A stretch of 35,250 nt of DNA. It comes from a virus. The DNA lies in the IMG/VR virus record IMGVR_UViG_3300010885_068627, positions 1-35,250 of that record; one strand, 5' to 3'. The translations under genes and the position numbers were made by a program. Positions 652 through 33,959 of the stretch are shown one piece after another. Below the pieces are notes generated by a model. It was not told the DNA's origin and did not search any database. It saw nothing but the letters and a program-made list of their open reading frames with translations. The first letter of the stretch is position 1; each line of letters begins with the position of its first letter.

Positions 652-679
652 TTGATTATTTACTATTTTAATTTATAAT
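652..679 (+). promoter_or_regulatory. Host-type promoter of thyX
   Basis: A -35-like TTGATT (652-657), a 16-bp spacer and a consensus -10 TATAAT (674-679). The -10 ends six bases before the thyX ATG at 686, so initiation at the usual distance would fall on or beside the start codon. No Shine-Dalgarno sequence is present. The -35 box also overlaps the late-type box of the divergent gene. Confidence 0.7.
656..662 (-). promoter_or_regulatory. Late-type box upstream of LRR-like gene
   Basis: On the minus strand the sequence is GTAAATAATC, a relaxed version of the T4-late TATAAATA. It lies 11 nt before the ATG at 644 and shares bases with the -35 of the divergent thyX promoter. Confidence 0.35.
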
Positions 680-685
680 AACCAC

Positions 686-1384
686 ATGAATAATGCTGTA
701 GAACTCCTAGGATTTTATGGATCAGATCAAATACATGCTTGTTCGGCATGGACCTCAACAAGCAGAGATCTAAATAATGATAAGATTGAACGCATTCCTA
801 AATTGCTTAAGATGCTGGCGGACGCTGGTCATCATACACCCTTTGAAAAGTCTTCTATTCATTTTCTTGTCAATTGCGATATTGCTTCCCATATACATAT
901 TATTAAGCATCGTGTTGGCGTGTCTGTTAATGGCGAGTCTGCAAGGTATAAGGAACTCAAGGAAGATAAGTACTATCTGCCAGAAGACTGGGCTGGAATC
1001 ATGACGTCAAAACCAGAAGCGTGGAAAGCATTTAATCATGATTATGCCGGAAATGAATTTCCATTTATTTCAGAAAAGTGGCTCGATAAGCTTAAGCAGT
1101 ATACCGCACAGGGCAATACTCTTTATCATCAATGCGTTAAAGACCTCGAGCCAGCTCTGGGCCGTAAACGCGCCAAAGAGTCCGCTCGATTCTTCAAGAC
1201 TTATAATTCCCAGATTCAGGCCGATGTAATGTTCAACTGGCGATCCTTTGCTCACTTCTTGCATCTGCGTAATAAGCCTGATGCGCAATTAGAGATTCGA
1301 GAGATTGCTGCTGAGATGCTACGCTTAGTAAAAGAGATTCCAGGTAATCCGTTTGAACATACTATTTCAGCATTTAATCTATGA
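686..1384 (+). CDS. thyX: FAD-dependent thymidylate synthase ThyX
   Basis: Makes dTMP from dUMP using methylenetetrahydrofolate and FAD, supplying thymine for an AT-rich genome. The 232-aa length suits the family. The ThyX signature lies at residues 74-88, with H75, R76, S80, E84, S85, R87 and Y88. It is a variant: Lys74 replaces the first Arg of the RHR motif, and eight rather than seven residues precede the key Ser. The C-terminal HFLHLRN segment and the following QLEIREIA helix are typical of the family. The ATG at 686 directly follows a consensus -10 box and has no ribosome binding site. The gene overlaps the next by an ATGA junction, so the two are probably co-translated. With dCMP deaminase and ribonucleotide reductase in the same window, it completes a dNTP supply set. 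Confidence 0.93.
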   Translation: MNNAVELLGFYGSDQIHACSAWTSTSRDLNNDKIERIPKLLKMLADAGHHTPFEKSSIHFLVNCDIASHIHIIKHRVGVSVNGESARYKELKEDKYYLPEDWAGIMTSKPEAWKAFNHDYAGNEFPFISEKWLDKLKQYTAQGNTLYHQCVKDLEPALGRKRAKESARFFKTYNSQIQADVMFNWRSFAHFLHLRNKPDAQLEIREIAAEMLRLVKEIPGNPFEHTISAFNL

Positions 1385-1599
1385 ATACAAAACTATTAGC
1401 TTCAGTGCACAGACTTCGCAAGTACAATGAATGGCGTAGAGGTGGAGAGTTTGAACTCGGGTCTTCACCTACTCAAATAGGTAAAGATCTTGATGCTGTT
1501 TTAAACTGGTGTCTAAAAAATTCTAGTACAACAGGATCAATTTATAATCGCCACAATAGTAAAGCAGCTGATGACGGAGTGTGTTATGAAGAACAGTAA
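1381..1599 (+). CDS. Hypothetical phage protein (72 aa)
   Basis: A small soluble protein starting in the ATGA overlap at the end of thyX, hence translationally coupled to it. The N-terminal half contains LRKYNEWRRGG, followed by a proline-containing segment and an IGKDLDAVLNW helix. I recognise the general pattern of a small conserved phage protein but not a function. No membrane segment, signal peptide or metal-binding motif is visible. Its 3' end overlaps the next gene by 14 nt. Reality as a gene is supported by the tight coupling and the continuous operon. Confidence 0.7.
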   Translation: MNTKLLASVHRLRKYNEWRRGGEFELGSSPTQIGKDLDAVLNWCLKNSSTTGSIYNRHNSKAADDGVCYEEQ

Positions 1600-1822
1600 A
1601 ACATTCTGGTTTCATTACAACAAACCTGCATCTCGTGCCACTGGGTCACCCAAATTGACTGTGCACTTCAATAAACGGTGTCACATTGTGGATCACATCA
1701 TGTGTCAAGTACACGTGCACAGTCATCACCAAAAGCAACAACCGCATTGTGTAATGAAAGGCCAATGCACACAGTTGCAATTGGTGAACAACCATGGTAT
1801 TGTAATGGGAGTAATAACATAA
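1586..1822 (+). CDS. Hypothetical phage protein, His/Cys-rich (78 aa)
   Basis: The frame opens earlier (an ATG at 1571), but the ATG at 1586 is preferred because a good ribosome binding site GGAG (1576-1579) lies six bases upstream, inside the previous gene. The protein begins MKNSKTFWFHYNKPAS and continues with a predicted beta-rich core containing KLTVHFN, CHIVDHIMCQVHVH and a QPHCVMKGQ segment. Several His and Cys residues could bind metal, but no known spacing is recognised. Small proteins opening with a FHYNKPAS-type stretch occur in many phages without known role. It ends before a short gap that holds a possible promoter for the next gene. Confidence 0.7.
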   Translation: MKNSKTFWFHYNKPASRATGSPKLTVHFNKRCHIVDHIMCQVHVHSHHQKQQPHCVMKGQCTQLQLVNNHGIVMGVIT

Positions 1823-1835
1823 ATTAGAATATGCC

Positions 1836-1864
1836 GTGAAATAATAACAAAGAACGGATAATAT
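1836..1864 (+). promoter_or_regulatory. Possible host-type promoter of the 1870 gene
   Basis: GTGAAA (1836-1841), a 17-bp spacer and TAATAT (1859-1864), ending five bases before the ATG at 1870. The geometry matches the stronger promoters in this window, but both boxes are imperfect. Confidence 0.35.
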
Positions 1865-1869
1865 ATTTT

Positions 1870-2242: not shown

Positions 2243-2250
2243 TCTATTCC

Positions 2251-2257
2251 TAAATAA
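2251..2257 (+). promoter_or_regulatory. Late-type box before the 457-aa gene
   Basis: TAAATAA following CC, 11 nt before the ATG at 2269. Box and spacing match the one before the minus-strand gene at 644. No convincing -35 is present. It is a relaxed T4-late-like motif. Confidence 0.35.
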
Positions 2258-2268: not shown

Positions 2269-3642
2269 ATGAATGGCCCTTTAGATAAAATCAAAACAGA
2301 TATAGCCCAAGCTACAAAGGATGGTCATGCTTCTAGTGTTATTAAAATAGTTAAGGCCTCCTATCCAGGGATGGACTTTACTGAATTTGGTAAGCCCGAT
2401 AAAATACCAGCAATAATAGACAGAGAATTAGGACACCTAGCAAATAAAGCTGTCATGGCTAAAGCTCAGGCTCCCCGGGCGGGGGTTTCTAAGATAGTGC
2501 ATGGTATTTTAATTGGCGCTATTGGAACTACGGTTTCTGAAATTCACGGCGTTATTTATAGCCCTTCTGATAAGTTAATCTATTCGGCTCCTCCTGATAA
2601 TATTTTTCTAGAAGAATCTGTTACAGAGGGAGAGTCGTTTATTACAATAATAGAACATCTTATTACATTAGGATATAATATAGAAGCTTCAGATATAATC
2701 ACTAGTAGCATAACGGGCAGAATAGAATGTTTACTGGTGCCAGGGTCTACAACCAAATATAAGATTTATATCAATTTATTAGAAATAGAAAATGATACAG
2801 TTCCTAAGAAATATTTCTTTTTGGGAACCCAAATACAGAGTGGTATTTATACCCTAGACATTTTATCCTTATTGCTTAAAATTGGCATCTCTACTCCTAA
2901 AAATACAGCCTGGACAAATATTTTACAAAGCCTTCCTGCGCAAATAGCTATAACTCCATTAATTCGTCTAGAAGATTTTTTACAAAAATTTGAATTGACA
3001 GACATAGCTGATTGTGGTAAAATTTTAAAATTTTATGCTTATGATATGGCTATTAATAATTTTACAGGGGTTGCTGTAAATAGCATTACAACGGCTAGCA
3101 ATTTATTTACATCTGTAGATGAATTGCGACAGGCTTATGGGCATAAAAAAGAAAAAGCAGAAGAAATATTAGCTAAACAAGAAGCTGAGCGGGTTAATTT
3201 TGAAGCTTACAAAACAAAATTTGTCAGTTTCTTATGTAATGCTGGATATACGATAGTAAGTGCTCGTAATGGACATTTTGTTTTTTATGATAATCCCGTT
3301 TATAACACCATAATAGATTCTGTTTTAAATCCAGCTTTACACATAAAATCTACGGATAACAAAAGAGTTTCTTTTTATCAGCATAAAATACATCTAGGAT
3401 ATATGGCTTTGCCTCCATTTTTTATAGATGTAGATAACATGGTTTTATTACCAGCAGACAGTTACACCAACTATTTAAATGTTTCACAGGGACTAGGTAA
3501 AATGGGATCTCCAGAATCCGCTGTAAATATACGAGGCCAAAATGAATGGGCAAGCTTTGAAGGAGCCATAGAAACTATAGCTCAAACTAAAGGACTCTCC
3601 CCCTCAGATATATCTTTGCTTTTAAACCTTGCATTAAAATAG
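2269..3642 (+). CDS. Unknown protein with central coiled coil (457 aa)
   Basis: I do not recognise this protein. It starts MNGPLDKIKTDIAQATKDG and is helical at first. Residues 70-90 contain a Gly/Ile-rich KIVHGILIGAIGTTV stretch, too short and polar to call a membrane helix with confidence. From about 285 to 320 there is a strongly charged coiled-coil candidate (KKEKAEEILAKQEAERVNFE). The C-terminal third is mixed alpha/beta and ends in a helical DISLLLNLALK. The upstream box is of the late class, so a virion or morphogenesis role is possible, but nothing in the sequence proves it. The gene stands alone between two small-gene clusters, with a separate promoter for its downstream neighbour. 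Confidence 0.85.
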   Translation: MNGPLDKIKTDIAQATKDGHASSVIKIVKASYPGMDFTEFGKPDKIPAIIDRELGHLANKAVMAKAQAPRAGVSKIVHGILIGAIGTTVSEIHGVIYSPSDKLIYSAPPDNIFLEESVTEGESFITIIEHLITLGYNIEASDIITSSITGRIECLLVPGSTTKYKIYINLLEIENDTVPKKYFFLGTQIQSGIYTLDILSLLLKIGISTPKNTAWTNILQSLPAQIAITPLIRLEDFLQKFELTDIADCGKILKFYAYDMAINNFTGVAVNSITTASNLFTSVDELRQAYGHKKEKAEEILAKQEAERVNFEAYKTKFVSFLCNAGYTIVSARNGHFVFYDNPVYNTIIDSVLNPALHIKSTDNKRVSFYQHKIHLGYMALPPFFIDVDNMVLLPADSYTNYLNVSQGLGKMGSPESAVNIRGQNEWASFEGAIETIAQTKGLSPSDISLLLNLALK

Positions 3643-3657
3643 ATTATAGAATATTCT
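3629..3657 (+). promoter_or_regulatory. Host-type promoter of the Cys-rich gene
   Basis: TTGCAT (3629-3634), a 17-bp spacer and TATTCT (3652-3657), ending eight bases before the ATG at 3666. The -35 lies inside the end of the preceding coding region. Confidence 0.45.
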
Positions 3658-4240: not shown

Positions 4241-4615
4241 TTAAAATTTAAAATTAGGGTCTGTTAGGTTTTGTATTTTTAATAAAGCTGTAGCACTTGC
4301 TGTATTAATCTTTTTTTGTATTAAGCTATTTTTTTTAATGGCTAGGTTATTTAAATCATGCCTGTCATTAAAGACTTCAACTGATTTACGAGTTACAGTA
4401 TCTATGCGCTCAGTTTGCTCTTGTATGTATTTTAATCGATTTACTGTTTCAGACATATTATCAGCCATAGTTTTTATGGTAGATTCCTGTACAGCTATCT
4501 GCACTTTTGTTGTTCCTAACTCTTGATTTAATCTAGCGGATATCTTATACTGCCAACAAGCTGCTCCACCTAGTAAAAAGACTAAGGCTGCAGCGCCACT
4601 TAATAAATACATCAT
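4241..4615 (-). CDS. Inner-membrane spanin subunit (i-spanin, Rz-like)
   Basis: The 124-aa protein has a single N-terminal membrane helix (about residues 3-22, LLSGAAALVFLLGGAACW). A long periplasmic, coiled-coil-like region follows (residues 30-100) with many Gln, Glu and Asn residues, then a short tail ending NFKF. This is the class II topology of an Rz-type i-spanin, in which the coiled coil spans the periplasm to contact the lipoprotein partner encoded next. Start is the first of two tandem ATGs (4615 or 4612). Its start codon overlaps in antisense a possible start (4614) of the divergent endolysin, through the palindrome CATG. Confidence comes from the pairing with the lipoprotein and the endolysin. 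Confidence 0.72.
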   Translation of the reverse strand: MMYLLSGAAALVFLLGGAACWQYKISARLNQELGTTKVQIAVQESTIKTMADNMSETVNRLKYIQEQTERIDTVTRKSVEVFNDRHDLNNLAIKKNSLIQKKINTASATALLKIQNLTDPNFKF

Positions 4616-5204: not shown

Positions 5205-5570
5205 ATGACTATCATTTCTCCATTAATACGCATGCAACAACAACTGCGTATATTTCATTGGCAAACTAGAAGTTATGCTCAACATAAAGCATTCGGCAAA
5301 GCCTATGAAAGTTTAGATGATCATATTGATGATTTTGTAGAAGTCTTCATGGGAAAATATGGTAGACCCATAGCTCACATAAATTTTAGTGTAGATTTAG
5401 ATAATATTGCAGACGTAGATATTACGGCAATAATAGATGACTATATTAAATTCCTTAGTTCTGATTTTGTAGCTGAATTAAATCCAGAAGCTGATACAGA
5501 CCTACTGAATATACGAGATGATATGTTGGGTGTATTGAATAGACTTAAATATCTCTTGACCCTCAAATAA
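5205..5570 (+). CDS. Dps/ferritin-like protein (DUF5856-like)
   Basis: Probably a short helical-bundle protein of the ferritin-like type. Residues 10-50 follow the Dps ferroxidase arrangement: a helix with LRIFHWQTRSY (His18, Trp19), a second conserved His27 in AQHKAFG, and an acidic helix LDDHIDDFVEVF supplying Asp/Glu ligands, then MGKYGR. I recall this as the phage family DUF5856, whose members begin in the same way. The C-terminal half is acidic (DLDNIADVDITAIIDDY; ELNPEADTDLL). True Dps proteins are longer (150-180 aa), so at 121 aa oligomerisation and iron storage are unproven. Located right after the endolysin and probably expressed late. The gene overlaps its convergent neighbour by eight bases. 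Confidence 0.65.
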   Translation: MTIISPLIRMQQQLRIFHWQTRSYAQHKAFGKAYESLDDHIDDFVEVFMGKYGRPIAHINFSVDLDNIADVDITAIIDDYIKFLSSDFVAELNPEADTDLLNIRDDMLGVLNRLKYLLTLK

Positions 5571-6009
5571 CCTTAAACAGCTTACTTAAAATGTAAATGT
5601 TATCATGGGATTGAGCTATTGCAGGGGCATCTGTTCCATAATCCCCATAAGGATCACTCTCTGAGTGGGTATCCTCTGGTAATATGGCTATATTGCGACC
5701 TTTGTCTAGAATAAGCCTTAGTAGTTGATTGGTAATATAACTATCTTTAGATCTATTAACAAAATCCTGAATTTGTTCTAAAGATACCTTTTTTGCTAAA
5801 ATTGAAAAGGGGTCTCCATAGGAGCCAAAAACCAAATGGGGGATATAGCTATTGGCTATGGTGGCACAATCTTTAATTACCGCGGCAGCAGCTGGCAAAA
5901 TGATTGTAACGCCATTACTAGGATTTTCCATAGCTTTTTTACTAGGACCATAAAGCTTGGCTTCTTTGATAGTGCCGTTTTCAATGATGACTTCTTCGAG
6001 GGTAGACAT
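5563..6009 (-). CDS. Hypothetical protein overlapping the dCMP deaminase gene (148 aa)
   Basis: Begins MSTLEEVIIENGTIKEAK and contains an Ala/Ile-rich stretch (ILPAAAAVIKDCATIAN), then mixed alpha/beta sequence and an acidic SESDPYGDYGTD segment near the C-terminus. I do not recognise a family. It starts 133 nt before the deaminase gene ends, in another frame. There is no upstream ATG in frame: the frame opens after a TAA immediately upstream of 6060. So either the two proteins truly overlap, or the deaminase reading has lost its ordinary stop. The amino-acid composition of this frame looks protein-like throughout, whereas the deaminase tail in the overlap does not. Confidence 0.7.
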   Translation of the reverse strand: MSTLEEVIIENGTIKEAKLYGPSKKAMENPSNGVTIILPAAAAVIKDCATIANSYIPHLVFGSYGDPFSILAKKVSLEQIQDFVNRSKDSYITNQLLRLILDKGRNIAILPEDTHSESDPYGDYGTDAPAIAQSHDNIYILSKLFKVI

Positions 6010-6419
6010 AGTTGTATAAGATTGATATGGAATTTTTCGGCTATTAAAATAGTTAACTCTTTATTGTAATTAGGTAAAATTTCACTATAGTAAACCCGTT
6101 TTATTTTCTTTTGAGCAATTAATTTTATACAATGCTCACAAGGTAAATGGGTTACAGCTAAGATTTCAATTTCACCCGGTTTGGCAAAGTTTAGAACATT
6201 CTCTTCAGCATGCAAAACATAAGGGCGGCGTTCATCTCGATCTGACCAATTGATATTAGTCCCGGAAGGTGCACCATTATAACCCAAAATTAAACTCTTA
6301 TCATATTTGATACCCACAGCTCCTACTTGCACCCAAGGATCTTCGCTTCGATATTCAGCAATGTGATAGGCTAGTTTAATAGCAGTTTCCGGCCAATTTA
6401 AACGGTGTCTTCCATTCAT
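5877..6419 (-). CDS. dCMP deaminase
   Basis: Converts dCMP to dUMP, the substrate of ThyX. Zinc-site motifs are intact: H70-A-E72 in VLHAEENVL and P93-C94-x-x-C97 in LPCEHC. The N-terminal SEDPWVQVGAVGI and YNGAPSGTN segments are characteristic of the deoxycytidylate deaminase family. Most of the fold ends near residue 135 (KFHINLIQL). The last ~45 residues are Lys/Leu-rich and lie wholly over the next gene in a different frame, so they are probably not part of the conserved enzyme. The start ATG overlaps the stop of the upstream nuclease gene (ATGA), implying coupled translation. Allosteric residues of the T4 enzyme cannot be judged here. Confidence 0.9.
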   Translation of the reverse strand: MNGRHRLNWPETAIKLAYHIAEYRSEDPWVQVGAVGIKYDKSLILGYNGAPSGTNINWSDRDERRPYVLHAEENVLNFAKPGEIEILAVTHLPCEHCIKLIAQKKIKRVYYSEILPNYNKELTILIAEKFHINLIQLCLPSKKSSLKTALSKKPSFMVLVKKLWKILVMALQSFCQLLPR

Positions 6420-7098: not shown

Positions 7099-7127
7099 AT
7101 TATACCTTATGGTATTTTTAAAAGCAA
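7099..7127 (-). promoter_or_regulatory. Host-type promoter of the nuclease-dCMP deaminase operon
   Basis: On the minus strand TTGCTT (7127-7122), a 17-bp spacer and TATAAT (7104-7099), ending eight bases before the ATG at 7090. It lies over the last codons of the upstream fibre gene. Confidence 0.55.
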
Positions 7128-8681
7128 GGTGTTTTTTAAATTTAAGTGTATATTAGTTTCTTTAACAGATCCAACATACAATTTATAGGTATCTCCGAAA
7201 TTTGTATCTAGATCTGAAAACGATGGAGTAATAGTATGAGACTTACCAGATATAGTATATTTATGACAAAGCGGAACGTCTGCGTTTGCATAGGTTCGCT
7301 GTGTGACAAATATCTTCCCTATGTCCTTATAAAGCACATCTGATTGCCAATCATGATCTGTATCGTCTATGGTATATTGAATCTGTGGATTGGTTTGATT
7401 GCTTATCTGTATCAATCTCTGTAAAATGCTTATTGTATTTTTCTTGAAAACATATGATGTTTTTTTATCATTAGCATTACCAGAGGTAAAAATAAATCCA
7501 TCAAGCGTGGTTGTACCTATGGTATCTAAAACCTGCGGTGCAGTTGCATCTAGATTTAAAAATTGCAAGAAATCTTTCACCGTTGTATGATCTAAGGTCA
7601 ATGTAACATCTGTATATACACTATATATGTTTGACTTGGTTGCATCTGTGCCAAGAGTATTTTTTTGAAAAAATAAACCAAATTCATCATCAGCATCACC
7701 ATCATCTTCTCGATCTGTACAGGATATTAAAACATCTATATCAGCATCCAGCATAGCATATGTACTGCTACTTAACCCTTTAGAATTTGTAGCAGCAGCA
7801 ACAGGAGCCCCCTTAGTGCGTATGATAGAATTAGCATTTAAATCTCCGAGATAAATCGTATTAGAAGTGTAAAGAATTAGTCGCCCTTTACTTGTATAAC
7901 ATAAAGGAGTTTTGTAATTCGAGGAAACATTGTAAAAGGATAATAATGTGTTAGGGAGATAATTAACCGCTCCTTTAAAATCTGAAAATCTTATTGGAGA
8001 TCCAGCAGATGGTATATCAAAGTCTTGGTGGCGATATTCAGAAATCCTAACGGGGTTGGGGCTAACAGATAATGATGAAACCTGTGTTGTATATGCTGTA
8101 CAAGTAAAATCAGCCCAATAATATCCAGTACCAGCTGTATAGGGGCCAGCGCCAATAAAGAAATCCAGTACTTCTCCACCGGTTAAAGAAAAATATTGTA
8201 AGTTAAATGTGCTGGTCTGTCTGCGGGTATGCTTGCCGCCAGCAGGTTCATATACATTGGCTACTGGATAACAACGTGGAATCCCAGCGGAATTGCTATC
8301 ACCATTAATGCGCATCCACAAAGAAACCATATGATCTAGATAACCACCAATACGTACTGTTATATCTGAGTTAACATCTACAGTCTGACCAACCGTCCAT
8401 TTCCATCCTGAGTAAGAAGATAATGGTGTTACTGGATAGGCATTACTATAATCCTTTCCTGGCTTATATGTATTACTAATTGGGGTGGAGTTTCCTTTGT
8501 TGTCTACAACATTGTTTACATGTTTAACTGTTTGAAATACTATAGAATGAGTATTTCCTGCATTGGTGTAACTTAAATAAGGAATCGAGACAGATGTTAC
8601 GGGTATAGAAGATGTATGGTATCCAGATAGCGTTGCTATCTTAGACATCTGTACTGTAGATACTGATAATACATCGGCCAT
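7107..8681 (-). CDS. Tail-fibre-block structural protein, unknown fold (524 aa)
   Basis: A Ser/Thr/Tyr/Asn-rich, beta-rich protein typical of phage appendages, with no recognised domain. The N-terminal 200 residues look like a compact beta domain (WTVGQTVDVNSDITVRIGGY, then DFFIGAGPYTAGTGYYW). Residues ~300-330 include a very acidic loop (TDREDDGDADDEF) that could bind cations. The end runs into strand-rich sequence finishing LLLKIP. It is the last gene of the minus-strand block and starts one base after the stop of the S74 fibre gene (TAA-A-ATG). Position suggests a fibre tip, receptor-binding or fibre-associated protein. That is inference from neighbours only. Confidence 0.8.
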   Translation of the reverse strand: MADVLSVSTVQMSKIATLSGYHTSSIPVTSVSIPYLSYTNAGNTHSIVFQTVKHVNNVVDNKGNSTPISNTYKPGKDYSNAYPVTPLSSYSGWKWTVGQTVDVNSDITVRIGGYLDHMVSLWMRINGDSNSAGIPRCYPVANVYEPAGGKHTRRQTSTFNLQYFSLTGGEVLDFFIGAGPYTAGTGYYWADFTCTAYTTQVSSLSVSPNPVRISEYRHQDFDIPSAGSPIRFSDFKGAVNYLPNTLLSFYNVSSNYKTPLCYTSKGRLILYTSNTIYLGDLNANSIIRTKGAPVAAATNSKGLSSSTYAMLDADIDVLISCTDREDDGDADDEFGLFFQKNTLGTDATKSNIYSVYTDVTLTLDHTTVKDFLQFLNLDATAPQVLDTIGTTTLDGFIFTSGNANDKKTSYVFKKNTISILQRLIQISNQTNPQIQYTIDDTDHDWQSDVLYKDIGKIFVTQRTYANADVPLCHKYTISGKSHTITPSFSDLDTNFGDTYKLYVGSVKETNIHLNLKNTLLLKIP

Positions 8682-10423: not shown

Positions 10424-10431
10424 TATTTATA
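10424..10431 (-). promoter_or_regulatory. T4-type late promoter, exact TATAAATA
   Basis: Minus-strand TATAAATA (10431-10424) followed by TTTAAA and the ATG at 10417. It is an exact match to the T4 late -10 consensus. Expected initiation is at or within a few bases of the start codon. Confidence 0.65.
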
Positions 10432-16352: not shown

Positions 16353-16359
16353 TATTTAT
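16353..16359 (-). promoter_or_regulatory. Late-type promoter of the adhesin operon
   Basis: Minus-strand CATAAATATT with the core ATAAATA at 16359-16353, seven bases before the ATG at 16345. Same extended motif as before the second S74 fibre (26205-26211). Confidence 0.6.
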
Positions 16360-16383
16360 GCTATAAGATCTTATAGCAGGGGC

Positions 16384-17004: not shown

Positions 17005-17009
17005 AATTA

Positions 17010-17037
17010 TATATAGATAGAATTATTAAAATTTCAA
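17010..17037 (-). promoter_or_regulatory. Host-type promoter of the GT32-like gene
   Basis: Minus-strand TTGAAA (17037-17032), a 16-bp spacer and TATATA (17015-17010), five bases before the ATG at 17004. An alternative -10, TATAAT, overlaps closer to the start. Confidence 0.5.
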
Positions 17038-17046
17038 TATCTTACC

Positions 17047-18589: not shown

Positions 18590-18608
18590 GCCTAGTAAGT
18601 AATCACAC

Positions 18609-18737
18609 ATGTATCGCAATTCAAGATTTCTGCAGGTTAAGCCAAAGAATAAAGTCAACAAACCTTACGCGTCTTTATCGTCTGTTTACGAGAAGGTGGT
18701 AACGGTGGCTGTAGTTCACAATGTTCTATATTTTTAG
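18609..18737 (+). CDS. Possible 42-aa ORF in the intergenic gap
   Basis: ATG to TAG, encoding MYRNSRFLQVKPKNKVNKPY followed by a valine-rich end. It sits in the only gap of notable size inside the glycan island and has more G/C and rarer codons than its neighbours. There is no clear ribosome binding site or promoter, and a start-less frame overlaps on the other strand. Either may be an accident of composition. Confidence 0.2.
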   Translation: MYRNSRFLQVKPKNKVNKPYASLSSVYEKVVTVAVVHNVLYF

Positions 18738-18768
18738 ACAATATAGCTATAACTAATGCTACAATCTT
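18655..18768 (-). pseudogene. Start-less 37-codon frame, possible remnant of a small membrane protein
   Basis: Reading from just after a TAA at 18769-18771, the frame encodes KIVALVIAILSKNIEHC, then a proline-rich, basic tail (LQPPLPPSRKQ, KTRKVC) ending at TGA. The hydrophobic start and Pro/Lys/Arg tail look like a small phage membrane protein, but no ATG, GTG or TTG start is available at the front (AAG ATT GTA). It would need an ATT start or be a decayed gene. Low confidence. Confidence 0.25.
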
Positions 18769-18781
18769 TTAATTTAGGTTA

Positions 18782-19426
18782 TTAACAAAACCATTTTTGT
18801 TCTAATGGTGAAAAGATGTGTGTTGAAGCTTTTTCAATATTGCGGTGAATAGAAACACCCATGCCTATACATGTTTTGGATGCTATAGATGTTTGGCTTC
18901 TAATTGTAGATCTTAATCCTAAAGATACTTCTTCTCCAATATTGCAGCCACCCCCTATAATAGATCCAGCACCAATATAAGAATGCTTACCAATGATGGT
19001 ATCATGAGCTATTAAAACGCCTTCACCAATATAACAATTGTCGCTGATGATAATATCTGGATGGCAAGCAGCAAGAGCTCCAATAAACACGTTCTCTCCA
19101 ATATTTTTGCGGTCTGTGTATAATATCGCTGATCGATGTATAAAGGTCAGAAAGTCATATTTAAGGGATTTAAATTGTTCATAAACCCTTTTGCGAGATT
19201 GACATTTATGTTTTGGTCCCATGGGAGAAAACAATTCATAATCATTTGGAGGGCAGTTATTCACAAAATCACTAAATTTATAGATAGGTTTATCCAAAAA
19301 CGTGGATGATGTGTGGTACTCATCATCCACACAAAATCCATGAACATCAATCCCCTCTTGAGATACCATGTTGTATATGGCTTTGATATTGCTACCATTT
19401 CCAAAAAATATTAATTTTTTTGACAT
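18782..19426 (-). CDS. NeuD-like sugar O/N-acyltransferase, left-handed beta-helix
   Basis: The N-terminal ~75 residues form a Rossmann-like NeuD domain (KLIFFGNGSNIKAIYNMV). From about residue 105 hexapeptide repeats begin (IGENVFIGALAACHPDI, CYIGEGVLIAHDTIIG, SYIGAGSIIGGGCNIGEEV), with a candidate catalytic His in IAHDTIIG. Such enzymes acetylate an amino sugar, which fits the nearby DegT aminotransferase. Unusually for this window the start has a good ribosome binding site (AAGGGG, five bases before ATG 19426). Its start codon overlaps the -35 box of the divergent gene. Probably works with the aminotransferase to make an N-acyl amino sugar donor. Confidence 0.85.
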   Translation of the reverse strand: MSKKLIFFGNGSNIKAIYNMVSQEGIDVHGFCVDDEYHTSSTFLDKPIYKFSDFVNNCPPNDYELFSPMGPKHKCQSRKRVYEQFKSLKYDFLTFIHRSAILYTDRKNIGENVFIGALAACHPDIIISDNCYIGEGVLIAHDTIIGKHSYIGAGSIIGGGCNIGEEVSLGLRSTIRSQTSIASKTCIGMGVSIHRNIEKASTHIFSPLEQKWFC

Positions 19427-19447
19427 ATTGCCCCTTATTTGTATATA
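19420..19447 (+). promoter_or_regulatory. Host-type promoter of the GT31-like gene
   Basis: Perfect -35 TTGACA (19420-19425), a 16-bp spacer and TATATA (19442-19447), six bases before the ATG at 19454. The -35 lies across the start codon of the divergent acyltransferase. Confidence 0.6.
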
Positions 19448-19453
19448 TTATAT

Positions 19454-20314: not shown

Positions 20315-20926
20315 TAACGCAAAATATGCTGTGTGGTGTGTCTTAATATATTTTTGCCTTTCAAAATCACTGCAACCAGTGTAATGAATCGCCTTAGTAC
20401 TATTATTAAAGCACTTTTGAATGCCATTTAGAGAAAAAATACAATTCCATGAAGGATTTAGTTCATGGATATCTAAAAAATTTCTTTCTTTTAATTCCTT
20501 ATTCAAAGGAAATTGTTCATATGCCGGTTCAGTTGAGGTTTTAGCCTGTAAAAATACTCTGTCCAATAAGGAACGGTATTTTTTAGGTATACCCATCAAT
20601 CCACAATTATATTTAAAATAAGGATAATTGGAAATAGGAGCCCCAGAATCTGCGACTAGGTTTATTAAATTATGATTTAAATACTTTTCAATAGAGTCAC
20701 TAAACCTCCGGGGTAATAAGTCCATATCCCAGCATAGCACAAAGTCATCCTCTATATAATCAAAACATTTTAATTTTAACCAAGAAGGATGTACATCATA
20801 TTTATTTTCATTTAAAACAAAGAAGCTAAGCTTGTGCTTAGTAAAGTAATCCATCAAGATAGATAGACTCATGTCATATATTGGTTTTTGGTCTGGTGAA
20901 GGTAGATTTACCAAAAATATTGTCAT
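20288..20926 (-). CDS. GT-A glycosyltransferase, GT8-like
   Basis: The sequence FVLCWDMDLLPRRF carries a DxD metal/nucleotide motif around residues 67-69. NCGLMGIPKKY matches the GT8 'N-x-G-x-M' acceptor element. LNPSWNCIF and KAIHYTGCSDF resemble the late 'W-N' and 'H-x-x-G' elements of GT8 enzymes. 212 aa, slightly short. The start has a late-type box (CATAAATATG), and the -35 of the divergent epimerase gene begins at its start codon. Unlike most island genes it reads on the minus strand with a late-type signal, so it may act late, perhaps on virion proteins. Donor sugar unknown. Confidence 0.65.
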   Translation of the reverse strand: MTIFLVNLPSPDQKPIYDMSLSILMDYFTKHKLSFFVLNENKYDVHPSWLKLKCFDYIEDDFVLCWDMDLLPRRFSDSIEKYLNHNLINLVADSGAPISNYPYFKYNCGLMGIPKKYRSLLDRVFLQAKTSTEPAYEQFPLNKELKERNFLDIHELNPSWNCIFSLNGIQKCFNNSTKAIHYTGCSDFERQKYIKTHHTAYFALLSQAISSF

Positions 20927-20953
20927 TGTTTTTTCATATTTATGTGTTATAAT
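20926..20953 (+). promoter_or_regulatory. Host-type promoter of the sugar-biosynthesis operon
   Basis: TTGTTT (20926-20931), a 16-bp spacer and TATAAT (20948-20953), ten bases before the ATG at 20964. The three genes that follow are overlapping or abutting and should be one transcript. Confidence 0.55.
20937..20943 (-). promoter_or_regulatory. Late-type box of the GT8-like gene
   Basis: Minus-strand CATAAATATG with ATAAATA at 20943-20937, ten bases before the ATG at 20926, inside the spacer of the opposite promoter. Confidence 0.4.
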
Positions 20954-20963
20954 TAAAAATACA

Positions 20964-21875: not shown

Positions 21876-22929
21876 TTTAGGTCGTCAATATACCTCTTTA
21901 AAGCGGGAGATACTGGATGCTCAGGATCAAGTATTTTCTAGTGGGTTGGTCTTAGATGGTGTATATGTAAAAGAATTCGAACAAAAAATTGCTACATACT
22001 GTAAACGCAAATATGCAGTTGCTGTTAATTCGTGCACTCAAGCCTTAACATTTGCTAATATAATATCTAAATCTCGCAGAATTCTTATGCCAGCTATGAG
22101 TTTCAGAGCCACTCTAAACTCTGCATTAATGGCAGATCAAGATGTTTTTTTTGCAGATGTAGATGATCAGGGGTTAATAGATACCCAAACGCTATTACTT
22201 CCTGCAGCCTATGATTATATAGAATCCTTAATGTTCGTAGATCTTTACGGTAATATACCAGATCAGAACAATATAGATAACTTTTGTAATAAATTCAAAA
22301 ATATTAAGATTATTGAAGATGCAGCTCAAAGTTTTGGTTCTTTCTGGGATGGTAACCCCGCCGGATCTTTTGGAGACATCAGTTGCTTAAGTTTTGATCC
22401 TTTAAAAAATCTACCCAATTATGGGTCTGGCGGTATGATTTTGACAGATAATAAAGATTACTATGAAACCGCTAAAAACCTAAGAGATAACGGCAAATAT
22501 AACAATTTAACTGCAGGTACTAATAGTAAACTTAGTGAAGGCGACTGCGCTGTTCTTTTAATTAAGATGAATCATTTTAATAATTGGCAAACCCGTCGCC
22601 AAGAAATAGCATCTTTTTATAATAAAAATTTAGAATCATTTGTTTATATACCAACTATATCTAATAAAGTTACACCCAGTTGGAGCAAATACGTCATTCA
22701 GACAGATCATCAACAGACTCTATCTAACTATCTCATATCAAATGGCATAGAATGCCGAATAAACTACCCTACCCCTTTGCCATTTTTATATGCTGGTGAT
22801 AAATATGAAAATAAAGAATTTGCTGTAGCTCAAAAATTAAGTAAAAGAGTGTTAAGTTTACCCATATACCCGGAAATGACAGATGTTGAGGTTGAATACA
22901 TTGTTAATACCATAATAAAATTTTTTTAA
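21847..22929 (+). CDS. DegT/DnrJ/EryC1/StrS-family sugar aminotransferase
   Basis: PLP-dependent transamination of a keto-sugar nucleotide. 360 aa, normal. IEDAAQSFGSFWDG is the family PLP-phosphate region, SFDPLKNLPNYGSGG holds the PLP-binding Lys at about residue 186, and the LRDNGKYNNL loop and final CRINYPTPLPF segment agree with the family. The frame extends upstream into the epimerase gene (21805); the ATG at 21847, just before KIPLVNLGRQY, is the natural start. Together with the SDR upstream and the NeuD-like acyltransferase nearby it gives a keto-sugar to amino-sugar to acyl-amino-sugar route. The exact sugar is not deducible. Confidence 0.88.
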   Translation: MAGLKIPLVNLGRQYTSLKREILDAQDQVFSSGLVLDGVYVKEFEQKIATYCKRKYAVAVNSCTQALTFANIISKSRRILMPAMSFRATLNSALMADQDVFFADVDDQGLIDTQTLLLPAAYDYIESLMFVDLYGNIPDQNNIDNFCNKFKNIKIIEDAAQSFGSFWDGNPAGSFGDISCLSFDPLKNLPNYGSGGMILTDNKDYYETAKNLRDNGKYNNLTAGTNSKLSEGDCAVLLIKMNHFNNWQTRRQEIASFYNKNLESFVYIPTISNKVTPSWSKYVIQTDHQQTLSNYLISNGIECRINYPTPLPFLYAGDKYENKEFAVAQKLSKRVLSLPIYPEMTDVEVEYIVNTIIKFF

Positions 22930-22933
22930 TACT

Positions 22934-23581
22934 ATGAATATAATGATAATTGTACCTCACCCAGATGATGAAGTACTTGGGTTTGGCGGTGCAATTCAGG
23001 GGCATATTGAACAAGGAGATAGGGTTTTTGTGTATTATATAAATGCAAATAACTCAAAAAGAGAGATACAACAGTATAAAGACCTGCAATCTGTATCGAA
23101 ATATTTAAAATTTCAAAGCATTGTAAAAAATATAAAACTTAATGATACTAATTTTAAAAAGTGTATTAATTATATAGAAAATGAAATTGAAAAAATAAAA
23201 CCAGATATCCTATACACGGTGTTTTATGGAGACAACCACCAAGATCATGAGTATATTTTTAAAGCTGTAAAAATAGCAACACGCATATGGTCATCTTTTT
23301 TGGTTAAAAAAATTTATCTAGGTGAAATTTTATCATCTACTGATCAAGCACCGAAGAACTTACTTCATACATTCTGTCCTACACATTATGTGGCTTTACG
23401 TGAAGATCAAGTAATTCGCAAATCAAAAAGTATATCAATGTACAAAGATGAAGTTATGCAATGGCCTCACCCACGATCTGAAAAAGGCATTATAAATTTA
23501 GCAGAACGTCGAGGAAGTGAATGCAAATCTCTGTATGCTGAAGCGTTTGTGATTCTGAGAGATATAAAAGAACTGGCCTAA
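22934..23581 (+). CDS. PIG-L/LmbE-type N-deacetylase
   Basis: Zinc-dependent deacetylase of N-acetyl sugars. The metal-binding motif P8-H9-P10-D11-D12-E13 is at the start of the protein in IIVPHPDDEVLGFGGAI, and the second His site is in FYGDNHQDHEYIF near residue 97. MQWPHPRSEKGI near the end is typical of LmbE-type enzymes. 215 aa, usual size. Starts four bases after the aminotransferase stop, so it is part of the same operon. A deacetylase next to an acyltransferase suggests exchange of an acetyl for another acyl group, or removal of acetyl from a host sugar. Whether substrate is a nucleotide sugar or glycan is unknown. Confidence 0.88.
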   Translation: MNIMIIVPHPDDEVLGFGGAIQGHIEQGDRVFVYYINANNSKREIQQYKDLQSVSKYLKFQSIVKNIKLNDTNFKKCINYIENEIEKIKPDILYTVFYGDNHQDHEYIFKAVKIATRIWSSFLVKKIYLGEILSSTDQAPKNLLHTFCPTHYVALREDQVIRKSKSISMYKDEVMQWPHPRSEKGIINLAERRGSECKSLYAEAFVILRDIKELA

Positions 23582-24238: not shown

Positions 24239-24266
24239 ATAATATAATTTATTTGTATAAAATCAA
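24239..24266 (-). promoter_or_regulatory. Host-type promoter of the 215-aa hypothetical gene
   Basis: Minus-strand TTGATT (24266-24261), a 16-bp spacer and TATTAT (24244-24239), seven bases before the ATG at 24231. One of the cleanest copies of the shared architecture. Confidence 0.6.
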
Positions 24267-26204: not shown

Positions 26205-26211
26205 TATTTAT
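26205..26211 (-). promoter_or_regulatory. Late-type promoter of the second fibre operon
   Basis: Minus-strand CATAAATATT with ATAAATA at 26211-26205, nine bases before the ATG at 26195. The divergent promoter's -35 starts three bases away. Confidence 0.6.
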
Positions 26212-26213
26212 GC

Positions 26214-26241
26214 TTGATATATACTTATCAAATACTATAAT
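26214..26241 (+). promoter_or_regulatory. Host-type promoter of the RNR operon
   Basis: TTGATA (26214-26219), a 16-bp spacer and TATAAT (26236-26241), six bases before the ATG at 26248. A GAGG (26243-26246) lies just one base from the ATG, too close for a normal ribosome binding site. Confidence 0.65.
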
Positions 26242-27059: not shown

Positions 27060-29189
27060 ATGAACAAGACTCAAGAAGTTAATTTTTTATCAGAAATAGC
27101 AAATTATATCTTTACCGACAAATATGCCCGTTTCAATGAATTGATGGGTCGTCGGGAAACATGGGATGAATGTGTATCACGCGTTGAAAAGATGCATTTA
27201 GATAAATTCAAAAAGAAATTATCTAAAGAAGAACTAGACGAGATCAAGGAAGCATTTAAATTTGTGCGTGAAAAGCGTGTAGTTCCTTCTATGCGTTCTA
27301 TGCAATTTGGTGGTAAAGCGGTTTTAGCACACAATCCTCGTATTTATAATTGCGCTGTTCGGCACATTGACAGCCCACGTGCCTTTGCTGAGGTGTTTTA
27401 TCTTTTGCTTTGTGGCTGTGGTGTTGGATTTGGATTGTCTAAACATTTTATCAATCGTTTGCCAGACTTGGTTGGACCAGATGATAAAAATGGAACCGTT
27501 GTTACTTATGTCGTAGAAGATAGCATTGAGGGATGGGCTGACTGTATTGAAGCACTTTTAAATTGTTATTTTCGCAATACAGCGTATTCTGGTCGTAAAA
27601 TTGTATTTGATTATAGCCGCATTCGTCCTGAAGGAGCTATTATTAAAACCGGTGGCGGTAAAGCACCTGGCTATAGGGGATTAAAAAAAGGCCTTCAAAA
27701 AATTAAAAATATTCTAGATTATATAATTGAAGAAAAGAGTCAAAATCGTCTGCATCCCGTTAATGCTTATGATATTTTAATGCATTGTGCAGATGCTGTT
27801 CTTAGTGGTGGTATTCGTCGATCAGCTACATCAGTTATTTTTGATCTAGATGATGATGAAATGATGAATTCTAAAGTAGCTTTTAAGGTTACTAAGTATG
27901 CTCATTTCTCCAAGAATGATAAGGGCAAGTATGAAGGTGTAGTATATGTTGATGGTCAATATGGTGGCATTAAAAAACACAAATATGATGTAACTATTGA
28001 TGAATGGGAGTATAACATTCTTAAAGAAAGCAGCACTATAAGCTGGATGCACATTGAACCTCAACGGGCTCGCTCTAATAATAGTGTTCTTTTACTGAGA
28101 GACTCGGTCACAGAAGAGGAATTTGTGAAGATTAATTCATTAACTCGCCAGTGGGGTGAACCCGGATTCGTTTTTGCAGACCATAAGGATCAATTATATA
28201 ATCCGTGTTTTGAAATTGGTTTCTTGCCTGTTACAGAAGATGGTGTTTGTGGTGTTCAATTCTGTAATCTATCTTCTATCAATGGCGCAAAAATTAAGAC
28301 GCCTCTTGATTTTATTAAAGCAACCTGGGCAGCAACACTAATCGGAACGCTTCAATCTACATACACTGATTTTAAATATCTAAGCAATGCTGCTAAATCA
28401 TTAACAGAAGGAGAGGCTTTGCTTGGTGTTTCTATCACAGGCGTGATGGATAATCCAGATGTCATTCTAAAGCCTGAGATACAAGAAGAAGGTGCTAAGA
28501 TGGCTATTGAAACAAATAAACTCTGGGCGGCTAAATTAGGTATCAACCAAGCTGCTCGTATTACAACCTTAAAACCAGAAGGTACTAGCTCTTTAGTTCT
28601 AGAAAGTGCGTCGGGTATTCATCCGCATCATGCCCGTAGGTATTTTCGGCGTGTGCAAGCAAATAAAATTGATCCTGTATACAAATTCTTCAAAAAGAAT
28701 AATCCACATATGTGTGAGGAAAGTGTTTGGTCTGCTAATAAAACAGATGATGTCATTTCATTTCCTATTACAGTAGGAGATAATGCCATGGTTAAAGCAG
28801 ATCTCACAGCTATCAAACACTTGGATATGATTAAATCAACACAGCAGCATTGGGTTAATAATGGTAAGACCGAAGCTAATGTTAATCCAGTTACACATAA
28901 TGTCTCTTGTACTGTTATTGTTGATGAGAATGAATGGGATGATGTATTTAAGTATCTTTTTAAGAATAGAAATTTCTTTGGAGCTGTGGCATTACTTCCT
29001 AAGACCGGTGATAAGATGTATAAACAAGCTCCGAATGAGGCTGTGACTACAGAGGAAGATGAAAAGAAATGGGCTGATATAGTTTCTAATTATAAACCTG
29101 TAAATTATAAAACATTAGAAGAAGACGAAGATACTACTAAACTATCAGATGCCTTGGCCTGTGCTGGAGGTAAGTGTGAGATACTCTAA
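27060..29189 (+). CDS. Class II adenosylcobalamin-dependent ribonucleoside-triphosphate reductase
   Basis: Reduces ribonucleotides to deoxyribonucleotides using a B12-derived radical, so needs no oxygen or separate beta subunit. 709 aa, single-chain RtpR length. Motifs: PSMRSMQFGG and NCAVRHI with C98 as one redox Cys; Asn381, Cys383 (radical site) and Glu385 in YNPCFEIGFLP; Cys397/Cys402 as candidates for the second redox Cys; PEGTSSLVLESASGIHPHHARRYFRR for phosphate and radical-site binding. The C-terminal C701-x4-C706 (ACAGGKCEIL) is the tail pair that re-reduces the active site, in the same x4 spacing as Lactobacillus RtpR. Host or environment must supply cobalamin. It overlaps the next small gene by one base. 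Confidence 0.93.
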   Translation: MNKTQEVNFLSEIANYIFTDKYARFNELMGRRETWDECVSRVEKMHLDKFKKKLSKEELDEIKEAFKFVREKRVVPSMRSMQFGGKAVLAHNPRIYNCAVRHIDSPRAFAEVFYLLLCGCGVGFGLSKHFINRLPDLVGPDDKNGTVVTYVVEDSIEGWADCIEALLNCYFRNTAYSGRKIVFDYSRIRPEGAIIKTGGGKAPGYRGLKKGLQKIKNILDYIIEEKSQNRLHPVNAYDILMHCADAVLSGGIRRSATSVIFDLDDDEMMNSKVAFKVTKYAHFSKNDKGKYEGVVYVDGQYGGIKKHKYDVTIDEWEYNILKESSTISWMHIEPQRARSNNSVLLLRDSVTEEEFVKINSLTRQWGEPGFVFADHKDQLYNPCFEIGFLPVTEDGVCGVQFCNLSSINGAKIKTPLDFIKATWAATLIGTLQSTYTDFKYLSNAAKSLTEGEALLGVSITGVMDNPDVILKPEIQEEGAKMAIETNKLWAAKLGINQAARITTLKPEGTSSLVLESASGIHPHHARRYFRRVQANKIDPVYKFFKKNNPHMCEESVWSANKTDDVISFPITVGDNAMVKADLTAIKHLDMIKSTQQHWVNNGKTEANVNPVTHNVSCTVIVDENEWDDVFKYLFKNRNFFGAVALLPKTGDKMYKQAPNEAVTTEEDEKKWADIVSNYKPVNYKTLEEDEDTTKLSDALACAGGKCEIL

Positions 29190-29419
29190 TGATTTTATCC
29201 TATAAGTTAGAACAACTATCAGAAGATCAATTATCCTTATTGGTTCATACCTTTAAGGATATATTGACAGATGCTGATGGAAACATAATGACTTGCAGAC
29301 TCAAGGCAATTAATTTACGTACCGCTTTGCCTAAATTACATCAAATAGAAAATCAATTAACAGAAGAAGGTAAGGAAATCTTAAGAAGTTTAATTACTAT
29401 CTTGAATTTTTATCCTTAG
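29189..29419 (+). CDS. Small helical hypothetical protein downstream of RNR (76 aa)
   Basis: Its ATG shares the last base of the RNR stop codon (TAATG), so translation is likely coupled to the reductase. Largely helical: LEQLSEDQLSLLVHTFKDIL, then DADGNIMTC, and a C-terminal LHQIENQLTEEGKEILRSLITIL helix. The D-A-D-G-N loop between helices resembles a calcium-binding turn, but a full EF-hand is not present. No family is recognised. A small partner of RNR or a replication accessory is only a guess from position. Confidence 0.65.
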   Translation: MILSYKLEQLSEDQLSLLVHTFKDILTDADGNIMTCRLKAINLRTALPKLHQIENQLTEEGKEILRSLITILNFYP

Positions 29420-29429
29420 ATGTTATTAT
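29402..29429 (+). promoter_or_regulatory. Host-type promoter of the 29435 gene
   Basis: TTGAAT (29402-29407), a 16-bp spacer, an extended -10 TG-T-TATTAT (29421-29429), and the ATG five bases later at 29435. The -35 lies inside the preceding coding region. Confidence 0.5.
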
Positions 29430-32384: not shown

Positions 32385-32391
32385 AATAAAC

Positions 32392-32419
32392 TTGATTTAT
32401 TAGTATTTAATCATAGTAT
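32392..32419 (+). promoter_or_regulatory. Host-type promoter of the TGT/DpdA-like gene
   Basis: TTGATT (32392-32397), a 16-bp spacer and TAGTAT (32414-32419), six bases before the ATG at 32426. Its -35 is the same DNA as the late-type box on the other strand. Confidence 0.55.
32394..32400 (-). promoter_or_regulatory. Late-type box of the baseplate hub gene
   Basis: Minus-strand ATAAATC (32400-32394), nine bases before the ATG at 32384. A one-base variant of ATAAATA, overlapping the opposite promoter's -35. Confidence 0.35.
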
Positions 32420-32425
32420 ATACAT

Positions 32426-33250
32426 ATGCCAATTCAAAATAACATCTTAGTATCCCATGAATCACCACTCTGCCTTTTAAGTGAATCCCGTCAATACAAT
32501 GACTTTGACTATGCATTAGTGCATCTTTTTGATGAACACCCTGAATATCTGCAATTTTTTAAAGATTCAATAAATGTATATAACCGAGATGTTCTATTAG
32601 ATAATAGCTTATTTGAATTAGGCAAAGCATTTGATAGTCGCCTTTATATGAAGCGCGCAGAAGAATTGAAGCCTACAATGTTAATTGTGCCTGATGTATT
32701 TCAAGACTGCGCGGGTACCATTCAGAGCTATAAAGACTTTATTAATGAATATCGAACAGGGTTAATGGACATTAATACAATTAAAATTGGTGCTGTACAT
32801 GGTCGTACTTGGCAGGAAATGTTAGATTGTTATAAATTCATGGCTCATAATGCAGACCTTATTGCAATTAGTTTTGATTTTGAATATTATCAGGCTACAG
32901 GTGAGGGATACACACGACCACAAAAGGCTATCACCGGTCGCCAAAGATTTATTTCACAATTAATTGAATGTGGTGCTTGGGCATGGAATAAACCACATCA
33001 TTTGCTTGGATGTAGCTTGCCGCAAGAATTTAGTTATTATAGACACAACAATATCTACAGCATTCGTAGTGTAGATACATCAAATCCCATTGTGCATGGT
33101 ATGTTTAATATCAAATATCAGGGTTCTTTTGGGTTGAAGGATAAGTGCAATACTAAATTAGCAGACCTAATGTCGGCATCAGTAGATATTGATCAAAAAG
33201 ACATCATAAAGTATAATGTCTCTCAATTTCAGAAGATATTGAACGGTTAG
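32426..33250 (+). CDS. TGT/DpdA-like TIM-barrel protein (putative deazaguanine transglycosylase)
   Basis: The order of motifs fits the tRNA-guanine transglycosylase superfamily: LLDNSLFELGKAFD (first strand with catalytic-type Asp), LIVPDVFQD, IGAVHGRTWQEMLDCY (compare VQGG...L of TGT), LIAISFDFEYYQ, HHLLGCSLPQEF (compare 'L-M-G-V-G-x-P') and SIRSVDTSNPIVHG, whose Asp could be the nucleophile. In phages, DpdA-type relatives insert deazaguanines into DNA. No preQ0 biosynthesis gene is visible, so the base would come from host or from genes outside the window. The 274-aa length is shorter than bacterial TGT and lacks its zinc Cys/His site. Alternatives: an unrelated TIM-barrel enzyme. Motif recognition is from memory. 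Confidence 0.6.
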   Translation: MPIQNNILVSHESPLCLLSESRQYNDFDYALVHLFDEHPEYLQFFKDSINVYNRDVLLDNSLFELGKAFDSRLYMKRAEELKPTMLIVPDVFQDCAGTIQSYKDFINEYRTGLMDINTIKIGAVHGRTWQEMLDCYKFMAHNADLIAISFDFEYYQATGEGYTRPQKAITGRQRFISQLIECGAWAWNKPHHLLGCSLPQEFSYYRHNNIYSIRSVDTSNPIVHGMFNIKYQGSFGLKDKCNTKLADLMSASVDIDQKDIIKYNVSQFQKILNG

Positions 33251-33549
33251 GTTCTGCCTAATATATGCATTGCATAGTATTGGGCGCGACAATAAAGCAC
33301 TGCAGAGGCACCAACACCATTAGCACTTAAATCAGAACCAGAAGTAATGCCTCTGAATATGAAGGAGGACGAAGGTGCAAGAACATAACTATTATCTGAT
33401 CCGGCATACCCATTATCAAAAACCAACACAGGCACTGGTGAAGAATTATAAATAGTAACCTCTGTGCATTCTATAGCAGATAATTTTGTTACCCCCGTTC
33501 CTACGGTTAGGTTAAAGCTCCGACATTGGTTGGTATTTGTGAATGCCAT
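33247..33549 (-). CDS. Small virion-like beta protein (100 aa)
   Basis: Beta-rich protein: FNLTVGTGVTKLSAIECTEV, IYNSSPVPVLVFDNG, NSYVLAPSSSFIFRGITSGS, VLYCRAQYYAMHILGRT. I recall comparable small proteins near structural genes of T4-like marine phages, where they seem to be virion decorations, but the role is not established. A late-type ATAAATATT box lies before the ATG. The stop overlaps the end of the convergent TGT-like gene by four bases. It is the only late-class gene in the right-hand plus-strand nucleotide cluster. Confidence 0.65.
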   Translation of the reverse strand: MAFTNTNQCRSFNLTVGTGVTKLSAIECTEVTIYNSSPVPVLVFDNGYAGSDNSYVLAPSSSFIFRGITSGSDLSANGVGASAVLYCRAQYYAMHILGRT

Positions 33550-33555
33550 TTCTAA

Positions 33556-33562
33556 TATTTAT
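33556..33562 (-). promoter_or_regulatory. Late-type promoter of the 100-aa virion-like gene
   Basis: Minus-strand ATAAATATT with core ATAAATA at 33562-33556, six bases before the ATG at 33549. Matches the boxes before the fibres. Confidence 0.55.
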
Positions 33563-33571
33563 CTTAATCTC

Positions 33572-33599
33572 GTGATTTTTTTATAACATAATCTATTAT
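33572..33599 (+). promoter_or_regulatory. Host-type promoter of the Nmad1-like gene
   Basis: GTGATT (33572-33577), a 16-bp spacer and TATTAT (33594-33599), six bases before the ATG at 33606. Divergent from the late-class gene with 56 bp between starts. Confidence 0.5.
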
Positions 33600-33605
33600 A
33601 GATGT

Positions 33606-33959
33606 ATGATTACTGCAGAAAATTGCATAGAATTTGTTGAAAAGACATATCCTAAAACTTGTGAAGCCTTTAAAGAAATACAACAACAGGATTACGAACT
33701 CTTTTGCAAAAAGCAATTTGATTACGGCCCTGGTAATATCTCCTTAGGATCTAATTTAGAGAACCCAGAGGATGTGCGAGCTTCTTTGTGTGGCATCACC
33801 TTCCGCGTTAGTGACAAGGTACAACGGCTTATAAACATGATAGTAAAGAAATCCAAGATAGAGGATGCTGCTAACGAACCCGTAATGGATTCTTTTCAAG
33901 ATTTAAGTAATTTTGGTATTATCGCCCGCATAGTTAAAAATGGTAAGTGGTGTAAATAG
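33606..33959 (+). CDS. Nmad1/DUF1599-like nucleotide-modification-associated protein
   Basis: A 117-aa helical protein with the family's characteristic order: KQFDYGPGNISLGS, CGITFRVSDKVQRLINMI and DSFQDLSNFGIIARIV followed by a terminal Trp. The D-K-x-x-R-L and D-S-F-x-D-L elements are the conserved ones I recall from DUF1599 (nucleotide-modification-associated domain 1). Comparative genomics has linked the domain to phages with modified bases, but its biochemical activity is unknown. Here it sits between a TGT/DpdA-like protein and a GMP reductase, which suits that theme. It has its own promoter with no leader sequence. Confidence 0.72.
   Translation: MITAENCIEFVEKTYPKTCEAFKEIQQQDYELFCKKQFDYGPGNISLGSNLENPEDVRASLCGITFRVSDKVQRLINMIVKKSKIEDAANEPVMDSFQDLSNFGIIARIVKNGKWCK

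Follow-up and report, generated by a model that had tools for sequence, protein, structure and literature searches.

Translation that does not depend on Shine-Dalgarno (SD) sequences, including that of leaderless mRNAs, is already known from some bacterial phyla. In Deinococcus-Thermus, for example, a -10 motif which adjoins an open reading frame (ORF) acts as a promoter and gives rise to leaderless or very short-leader mRNAs, as is the case for nearly one-third of D. radiodurans ORFs (PMC12340547). A large share of mycobacterial mRNAs similarly start their transcription at the start codon itself, i.e., they are leaderless (PMC3898074, PMC4633059). Considered here is a promoter layout in which sigma-70-type boxes, and also phage T4-type late boxes, end only a few nucleotides (nt) before ATG start codons, as found along IMG/VR record IMGVR_UViG_3300010885_068627, a virus sequence of 35,250 nt and 34% G+C (the whole of which was analysed and is referred to below as ‘the window’).

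The likeness to Deinococcus-Thermus lies in the -10 box standing directly before the start codon. In the cellular genes of that group, however, no -35 box is needed for the -10 motif to function, whereas the window carries the full TTG/TATAAT pair; the window also is that of a phage with no SD-preceded genes at all, and in it a second, late promoter class obeys the same rule. Mycobacterial leaderless mRNAs, in turn, are known from mapped 5' ends, from cellular genes, and from hosts that use SD as well, with the comparison here being to a whole phage fragment lacking SD, known from its sequence alone.

With phage T4, whose late promoter is TATAAATA, what is shared is the presence of NATAAATA upstream of structural genes. 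The T4 late box, though, is for the most part separated from the start codon by 24-28 nt that include an SD, versus 4-10 nt and no SD in the window. The cultured, T4-like Pelagibacter phage HTVC008M (L115, 1-50000) displays seven NATAAATA boxes exactly 5 nt before ATG; unlike the window, it has SD cores before 20 of 43 genes and its sigma-70-type promoters are not found near ATG (0 vs. 0.3 expected). A literature search that covered mainly titles and abstracts, and few subscription journals, turned up no description of systematically leaderless early along with late promoters in a phage.

Promoter boxes beside start codons

Canonical sigma-70 boxes, that is, TTGACA-like and TATAAT-like hexamers separated by 16-18 base pairs (bp), occur upstream of window genes above chance. 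An earlier note on this DNA had listed eleven such segments as compact host-type promoters of metabolic operons, with spacers of 16 and sometimes 17 bp. All eleven lie where, and on the strand on which, that note had placed them, with their -10 boxes ending 5-10 nt before ATG, and most are good matches, those at 17037-17010 (TATATA), 33572-33599 (GTGATT) and 3629-3657 (both boxes) being weak. An independent search of all starts recovered ten of the eleven, i.e., all except 17037-17010, plus an additional site upstream of 6419(-). The 16-bp spacer predominates, and the distance from -10 end to start codon among the putatively leaderless genes has a mode of 6 nt and a range of 4-10 nt.

As TTGnnn and TAnnnT are frequent at 34% G+C, it might be that the layout is due to chance, with the listed copies simply having been selected from AT-rich DNA. 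That two or three of the eleven are weak is consistent with such a view, as is the occurrence of a loose arrangement (TTG-type box, 15-18 bp, TAnnnT, ending 4-10 nt upstream of ATG) before 64 window ATGs which are not gene starts. Those 64, though, come from 1323 such control ATGs and stand against 11 of 40 gene starts (Fisher p=4e-6), and given a strict -10 box the counts become 15 of 1323 and 9 of 40 (p=6e-9). When both boxes are scored more strictly, 7 of 41 starts qualify versus the 0.0-0.3 that are expected from dinucleotide shuffles of upstream regions.

The T4 late box, NATAAATA, constitutes a second promoter class in the window, ending 4-10 nt before ATG at 6 of 40 starts as compared with 1 of 1323 other ATGs (p=3e-9). 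Five of the six starts are on the minus strand, which is home to most of the tail and otherwise structural-type genes, and four of those five boxes display the extended ATAAATATT. Sigma-70-type and late-type promoters stand back to back at 20926/20964, 26195/26248 and 33549/33606, with divergent gaps of 37-56 bp. Leaderless or near-leaderless mRNA, much as the earlier note had proposed, would still be the best reading of this geometry, which is far above chance, but the rule extends beyond host-type early promoters, as the late class follows it too.

SD core tetramers precede none of the 41 window starts, versus 2.5 expected. The genes which the earlier note had described as lacking SD do indeed lack it, but are not special in this regard, with the absence extending to every window gene, including those that are operon-internal or late. 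The individual sites are collected in Table 1.

Table 1. Promoter-like sites ending shortly before ATG codons of the window (distances are from box end to ATG).
Boxes	Positions	Strand	Class	Distance and ATG	Remarks
TTGATT-16-TATAAT	652..679	+	sigma-70-type	6 nt, ATG 686	thyX
TTGCAT-17-TATTCT	3629..3657	+	promoter-like, both boxes weak	8 nt, ATG 3666	overlaps end of gene 2269-3642
TTGCTT-17-TATAAT	7099..7127	-	sigma-70-type	8 nt, ATG 7090	exonuclease family phrog_298; overlaps end of gene 7107-8681(-)
TTGAAA-16-TATATA	17010..17037	-	promoter-like, weak	5 nt, ATG 17004	glycosyltransferase-like; missed by TAnnnT definition
TTGACA, -10 TATATA/TATATT	19420..19447	+	sigma-70-type	4-6 nt, ATG 19454	overlaps start of divergent gene 18782-19426(-)
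TTGTTT-16-TATAAT	20926..20953	+	sigma-70-type	10 nt, ATG 20964	nucleotide-sugar epimerase
TTGATT-16-TATTAT	24239..24266	-	sigma-70-type	7 nt, ATG 24231	
TTGATA-16-TATAAT	26214..26241	+	sigma-70-type	6 nt, ATG 26248	first gene of run leading to class II ribonucleotide reductase
TTGAAT-16-TATTAT	29402..29429	+	sigma-70-type	5 nt, ATG 29435	overlaps end of gene 29189-29419
TTGATT-16-TAGTAT	32392..32419	+	sigma-70-type	6 nt, ATG 32426	DpdA-like gene
GTGATT-16-TATTAT	33572..33599	+	sigma-70-type	6 nt, ATG 33606	-35 is GTGATT
AATAAATA	4602..4609	+	T4-type late	4 nt, ATG 4614	
TATAAATA	10424..10431	-	T4-type late	6 nt, ATG 10417	
CATAAATA	16353..16360	-	T4-type late	7 nt, ATG 16345	
CATAAATA	20937..20944	-	T4-type late	10 nt, ATG 20926	overlaps + strand promoter 20926-20953
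CATAAATA	26205..26212	-	T4-type late	9 nt, ATG 26195	adjoins + strand promoter 26214-26241
GATAAATA	33556..33563	-	T4-type late	6 nt, ATG 33549	divergent from promoter 33572-33599

The layout among related phages

Via thyX, DpdA-like, ribonucleotide reductase and GuaB-like genes, 104 related IMG/VR loci were retrieved, of which 93 were classed by SD content alone, 72 of them as SD-less and 8 as SD-rich. The 72 SD-less loci hold 93 near-ATG promoters where 7.5 are expected (1236 distinct gene starts), versus 2 where 2.1 are expected in the SD-rich loci (241 genes), in which it is more distant promoters that occur (36 vs. 12.8). Near-ATG promoters, that is, are correlated with SD-lessness across phages. 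By this replication, along with the ATG controls and shuffles, a chance origin of the layout is refuted, any probability still to be granted it being negligible.

Since the list of the earlier note had some influence on how the boxes were defined, the unbiased support for the layout is instead that of positional k-mers in the related phages, as counted using no promoter model. There TTGACA peaks 28-31 nt before ATG while TATAAT, TATTAT and TGTAAT peak 5-8 nt before it. The near gaps number 6 at 4 nt, 24 at 5 nt, 47 at 6 nt, 23 at 7 nt, 24 at 8 nt and 12 at 9 nt, with counts near background below 4 nt and a low tail above 9 nt. Spacers of 16 and 17 bp are equally frequent in these phages (60 and 65 of 136), so that the predominance of 16 bp which had been claimed describes the window and not its relatives.

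Loci with the layout form several groups that have few genes in common. Rather than a peculiarity of a single phage, the layout looks like an adaptation to a kind of host, and the convergence in unrelated phages indicates a host property, likely one that these gene-unrelated, SD-less groups share. At the level of single genes, the DpdA-like orthologues of the relatives L082 and L083 retain TTGATT/TTGATA-17-TATACT/TATAAT-6-ATG, with spacer sequences that have diverged.

From box geometry to mRNA 5' ends

Transcription from sigma-70 promoters normally begins 6-7 bases past the -10 box, and gaps of 5-9 nt therefore would place the mRNA 5' end either at the AUG itself or 1-4 nt upstream. The reading preferred here, which is held to be probable, is that both the sigma-70 and the T4-like late promoters yield mRNAs that are leaderless or possess leaders of 0-4 nt, in hosts whose ribosomes use SD little. 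Host RNA polymerase thus would read the canonical sigma-70 promoters (TTGAnn, 16-17 bp, TATAAT), and a gp55-like late sigma presumably would read the T4-type late promoters (NATAAATA). With the usual start falling on the A of the AUG, or at most some 4 nt upstream of it, the first genes of operons would be translated from a 5' AUG in the absence of SD pairing. Ribosomes would reach the downstream genes via stop-start coupling, again without SD. The layout may then be an adaptation to ribosomes making little use of SD, that is, with no need for an SD leader, selection together with compaction would fix the start site at the AUG. The sharp lower bound on gaps fits with this, because the AUG must be inside the transcript. 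That two different promoter classes are placed so alike points to selection acting at the mRNA 5' end, and not on either polymerase.

Compaction without such selection would have a host lacking the need for SD merely tolerate short non-SD leaders of any length, with promoters being near AUG owing to intergenic gaps of about 40 bp, and with short, ordinary leaders resulting rather than any special role for leaderlessness. Divergent gaps of 27-56 bp are as one would then anticipate, as are the overlap of several promoters with coding ends and the absence of SD from all genes, not just from promoter-proximal ones. SD-blind Flavobacteria, furthermore, have leaders with a median length of 24 nt, just 5.5% of their mRNAs being leaderless (PMC9723704), and SD-blindness alone therefore does not force the layout. 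The gaps, however, peak sharply at 5-8 nt rather than spreading over 5-30 nt, a narrow peak and sharp upper bound which argue against tolerated leaders of arbitrary length, and the late boxes, which form a separate class, arrive at a comparable gap. Compaction as the whole explanation is considered unlikely.

A number of points nevertheless weigh against leaderless or ultrashort-leader mRNAs as here proposed. Sigma-70 starts vary by a few bases, and leaders of 1-4 nt are just as likely as a true zero. The leaderless status of these mRNAs would follow from promoter geometry rather than from mapped 5' ends, and ‘host-type’ as a label would follow from similarity to consensus. Box definitions were shaped in part by the earlier list and gene starts were set by longest-ATG rules. 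Many starts are without a recognisable near promoter and, among thyX orthologues, only 5 of 57 have one, i.e., relatives do not retain the precise promoter of a particular gene. Within the 35-kb fragment no gp55 late sigma gene was identified, no test aimed at gp55/gp33 having been made.

If leaderless or ultrashort-leader mRNAs are indeed made, then the ending of both promoter classes 5-9 nt before AUG, in combination with SD absence, would be a signature predicting how the host initiates translation, one that would be useful in the host assignment of uncultured phages. A direct test would also become possible of whether an entire lytic programme can run on leaderless initiation, with the contrast to T4 isolating one variable, which is the missing SD leader of about 20 nt behind otherwise similar late promoters.

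Host candidates and gene content

The earlier note had deemed the layout unusual for a phage of a Gram-negative host. Such a host is not established, however, and some bacterial phyla, as indicated above, do employ translation of this kind. A Bacteroidota host might account for the SD-lessness, with the boxes then being a variant of the TTG/TAnnTTTG promoter: ribosomes of Bacteroidia fail to recognise SD (PMC9976891), the DpdA-like gene has a relative in Flavobacterium phage immuto, and thyX has relatives in contigs of a Flavobacterium metagenome-assembled genome (MAG). Yet TAnnTTTG (the -7 box) is upstream of just 1 of 41 window genes, with 2.6 expected, versus 31 of 76 for a Flavobacterium MAG chromosome; none of 248 Bacteroidota genomes has a marked excess of the near-ATG sigma-70 pattern; and the thyX-bearing contigs of the Flavobacterium MAG (L106, L107) are without the near grammar. 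A Bacteroidota host is disfavoured, and quite improbable. Separately, a Manatee Spring podovirus (L118; MW202828) has TAnnTTTG upstream of 13 of its 51 genes (2.0 expected) and is nearly devoid of SD, an indication that the host of that phage belongs to Bacteroidota.

Verrucomicrobiota-type hosts are suggested as a lead only and are not claimed. Prepilins are encoded by two grammar-positive loci, L092 and L090, which share genes with the window, and that of L092 has matches in 14 of 39 Verrucomicrobiota genomes and in 0 of 41 Bacteroidota genomes; the window has no such prepilin gene, and several of the prepilin-matching Verrucomicrobiota genomes examined use SD. Some Verrucomicrobiota genomes are SD-poor, and in those examined the near-ATG excess is mild, about twofold, 31 vs. 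15 across nine genomes, as compared with no excess by gene-based test in Verrucomicrobiota that use SD. By my own tally, 10 of about 41 promoters in SD-poor genomes are near ATG vs. 0 of about 22 in SD users, and these figures are no more than suggestive. A mixed MAG bin (G007) gave mixed signals.

When 59 Verrucomicrobiota genomes were scanned for the pattern, hits came out far above a reversed-pattern control, but this control was misleading and the result was dropped: by gene-based tests the high-scoring genomes proved to be SD users whose promoters lie far from ATG, and a shifted-gap control was nearly equal (74 vs. 62, in four SD-using genomes).

The broadest scenario would have large environmental phages of several lineages, unrelated in their genes, arrive convergently at a fully leaderless programme, early as well as late, in hosts, possibly SD-poor Verrucomicrobiota or relatives, that start translation mainly at 5'-terminal AUGs, with the T4-type late promoter having lost its SD leader of about 20 nt. 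This is entertained only tentatively.

As to kinship, L082 and L083 are syntenic with the window across baseplate and DpdA-like genes and possess a T4 gp23-type capsid protein, about 33% identical to cyanophage gp23, and the window phage therefore is most likely a distant T4-type virus. That capsid protein is indicative of T4 kinship only, not of the presence of gp55/gp33. A baseplate-gene search of viral contigs found no relatives.

The window contains no tRNA genes. Genes of nucleotide metabolism are thyX, dCMP deaminase, a class II ribonucleotide reductase and one of an exonuclease family, in addition to which there are the DpdA-like and GuaB-like genes, a sugar-modification cluster, and baseplate and tail genes. 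The DpdA-like gene (32426-33250, +) encodes a 274-aa protein that is 40-46% identical to products of Campylobacter phages (CP220 group) and likewise to the DNA guanine transglycosylase (DpdA) of phage immuto, which suggests 7-deazaguanine DNA modification; no queuosine-pathway genes were recognised in the 35-kb fragment. Beyond it (33965-35032, +, with GTG start) is a GuaB/GMP-reductase-like protein with an N-terminal match to DUF5522, an apparent GuaB-like/DUF5522 fusion. At 5563-6419 (-), the dCMP deaminase ORF (5877-6419) shares 133 bases with the next ORF (5563-6009), which is in a different frame, the corresponding overlap in the relative L086 being only about 25 bases. The cluster at 16384-23581, with its glycosyltransferase-like, radical SAM, hexapeptide transferase, epimerase, DegT aminotransferase and PIG-L deacetylase genes, probably serves in the modification of surface sugars.

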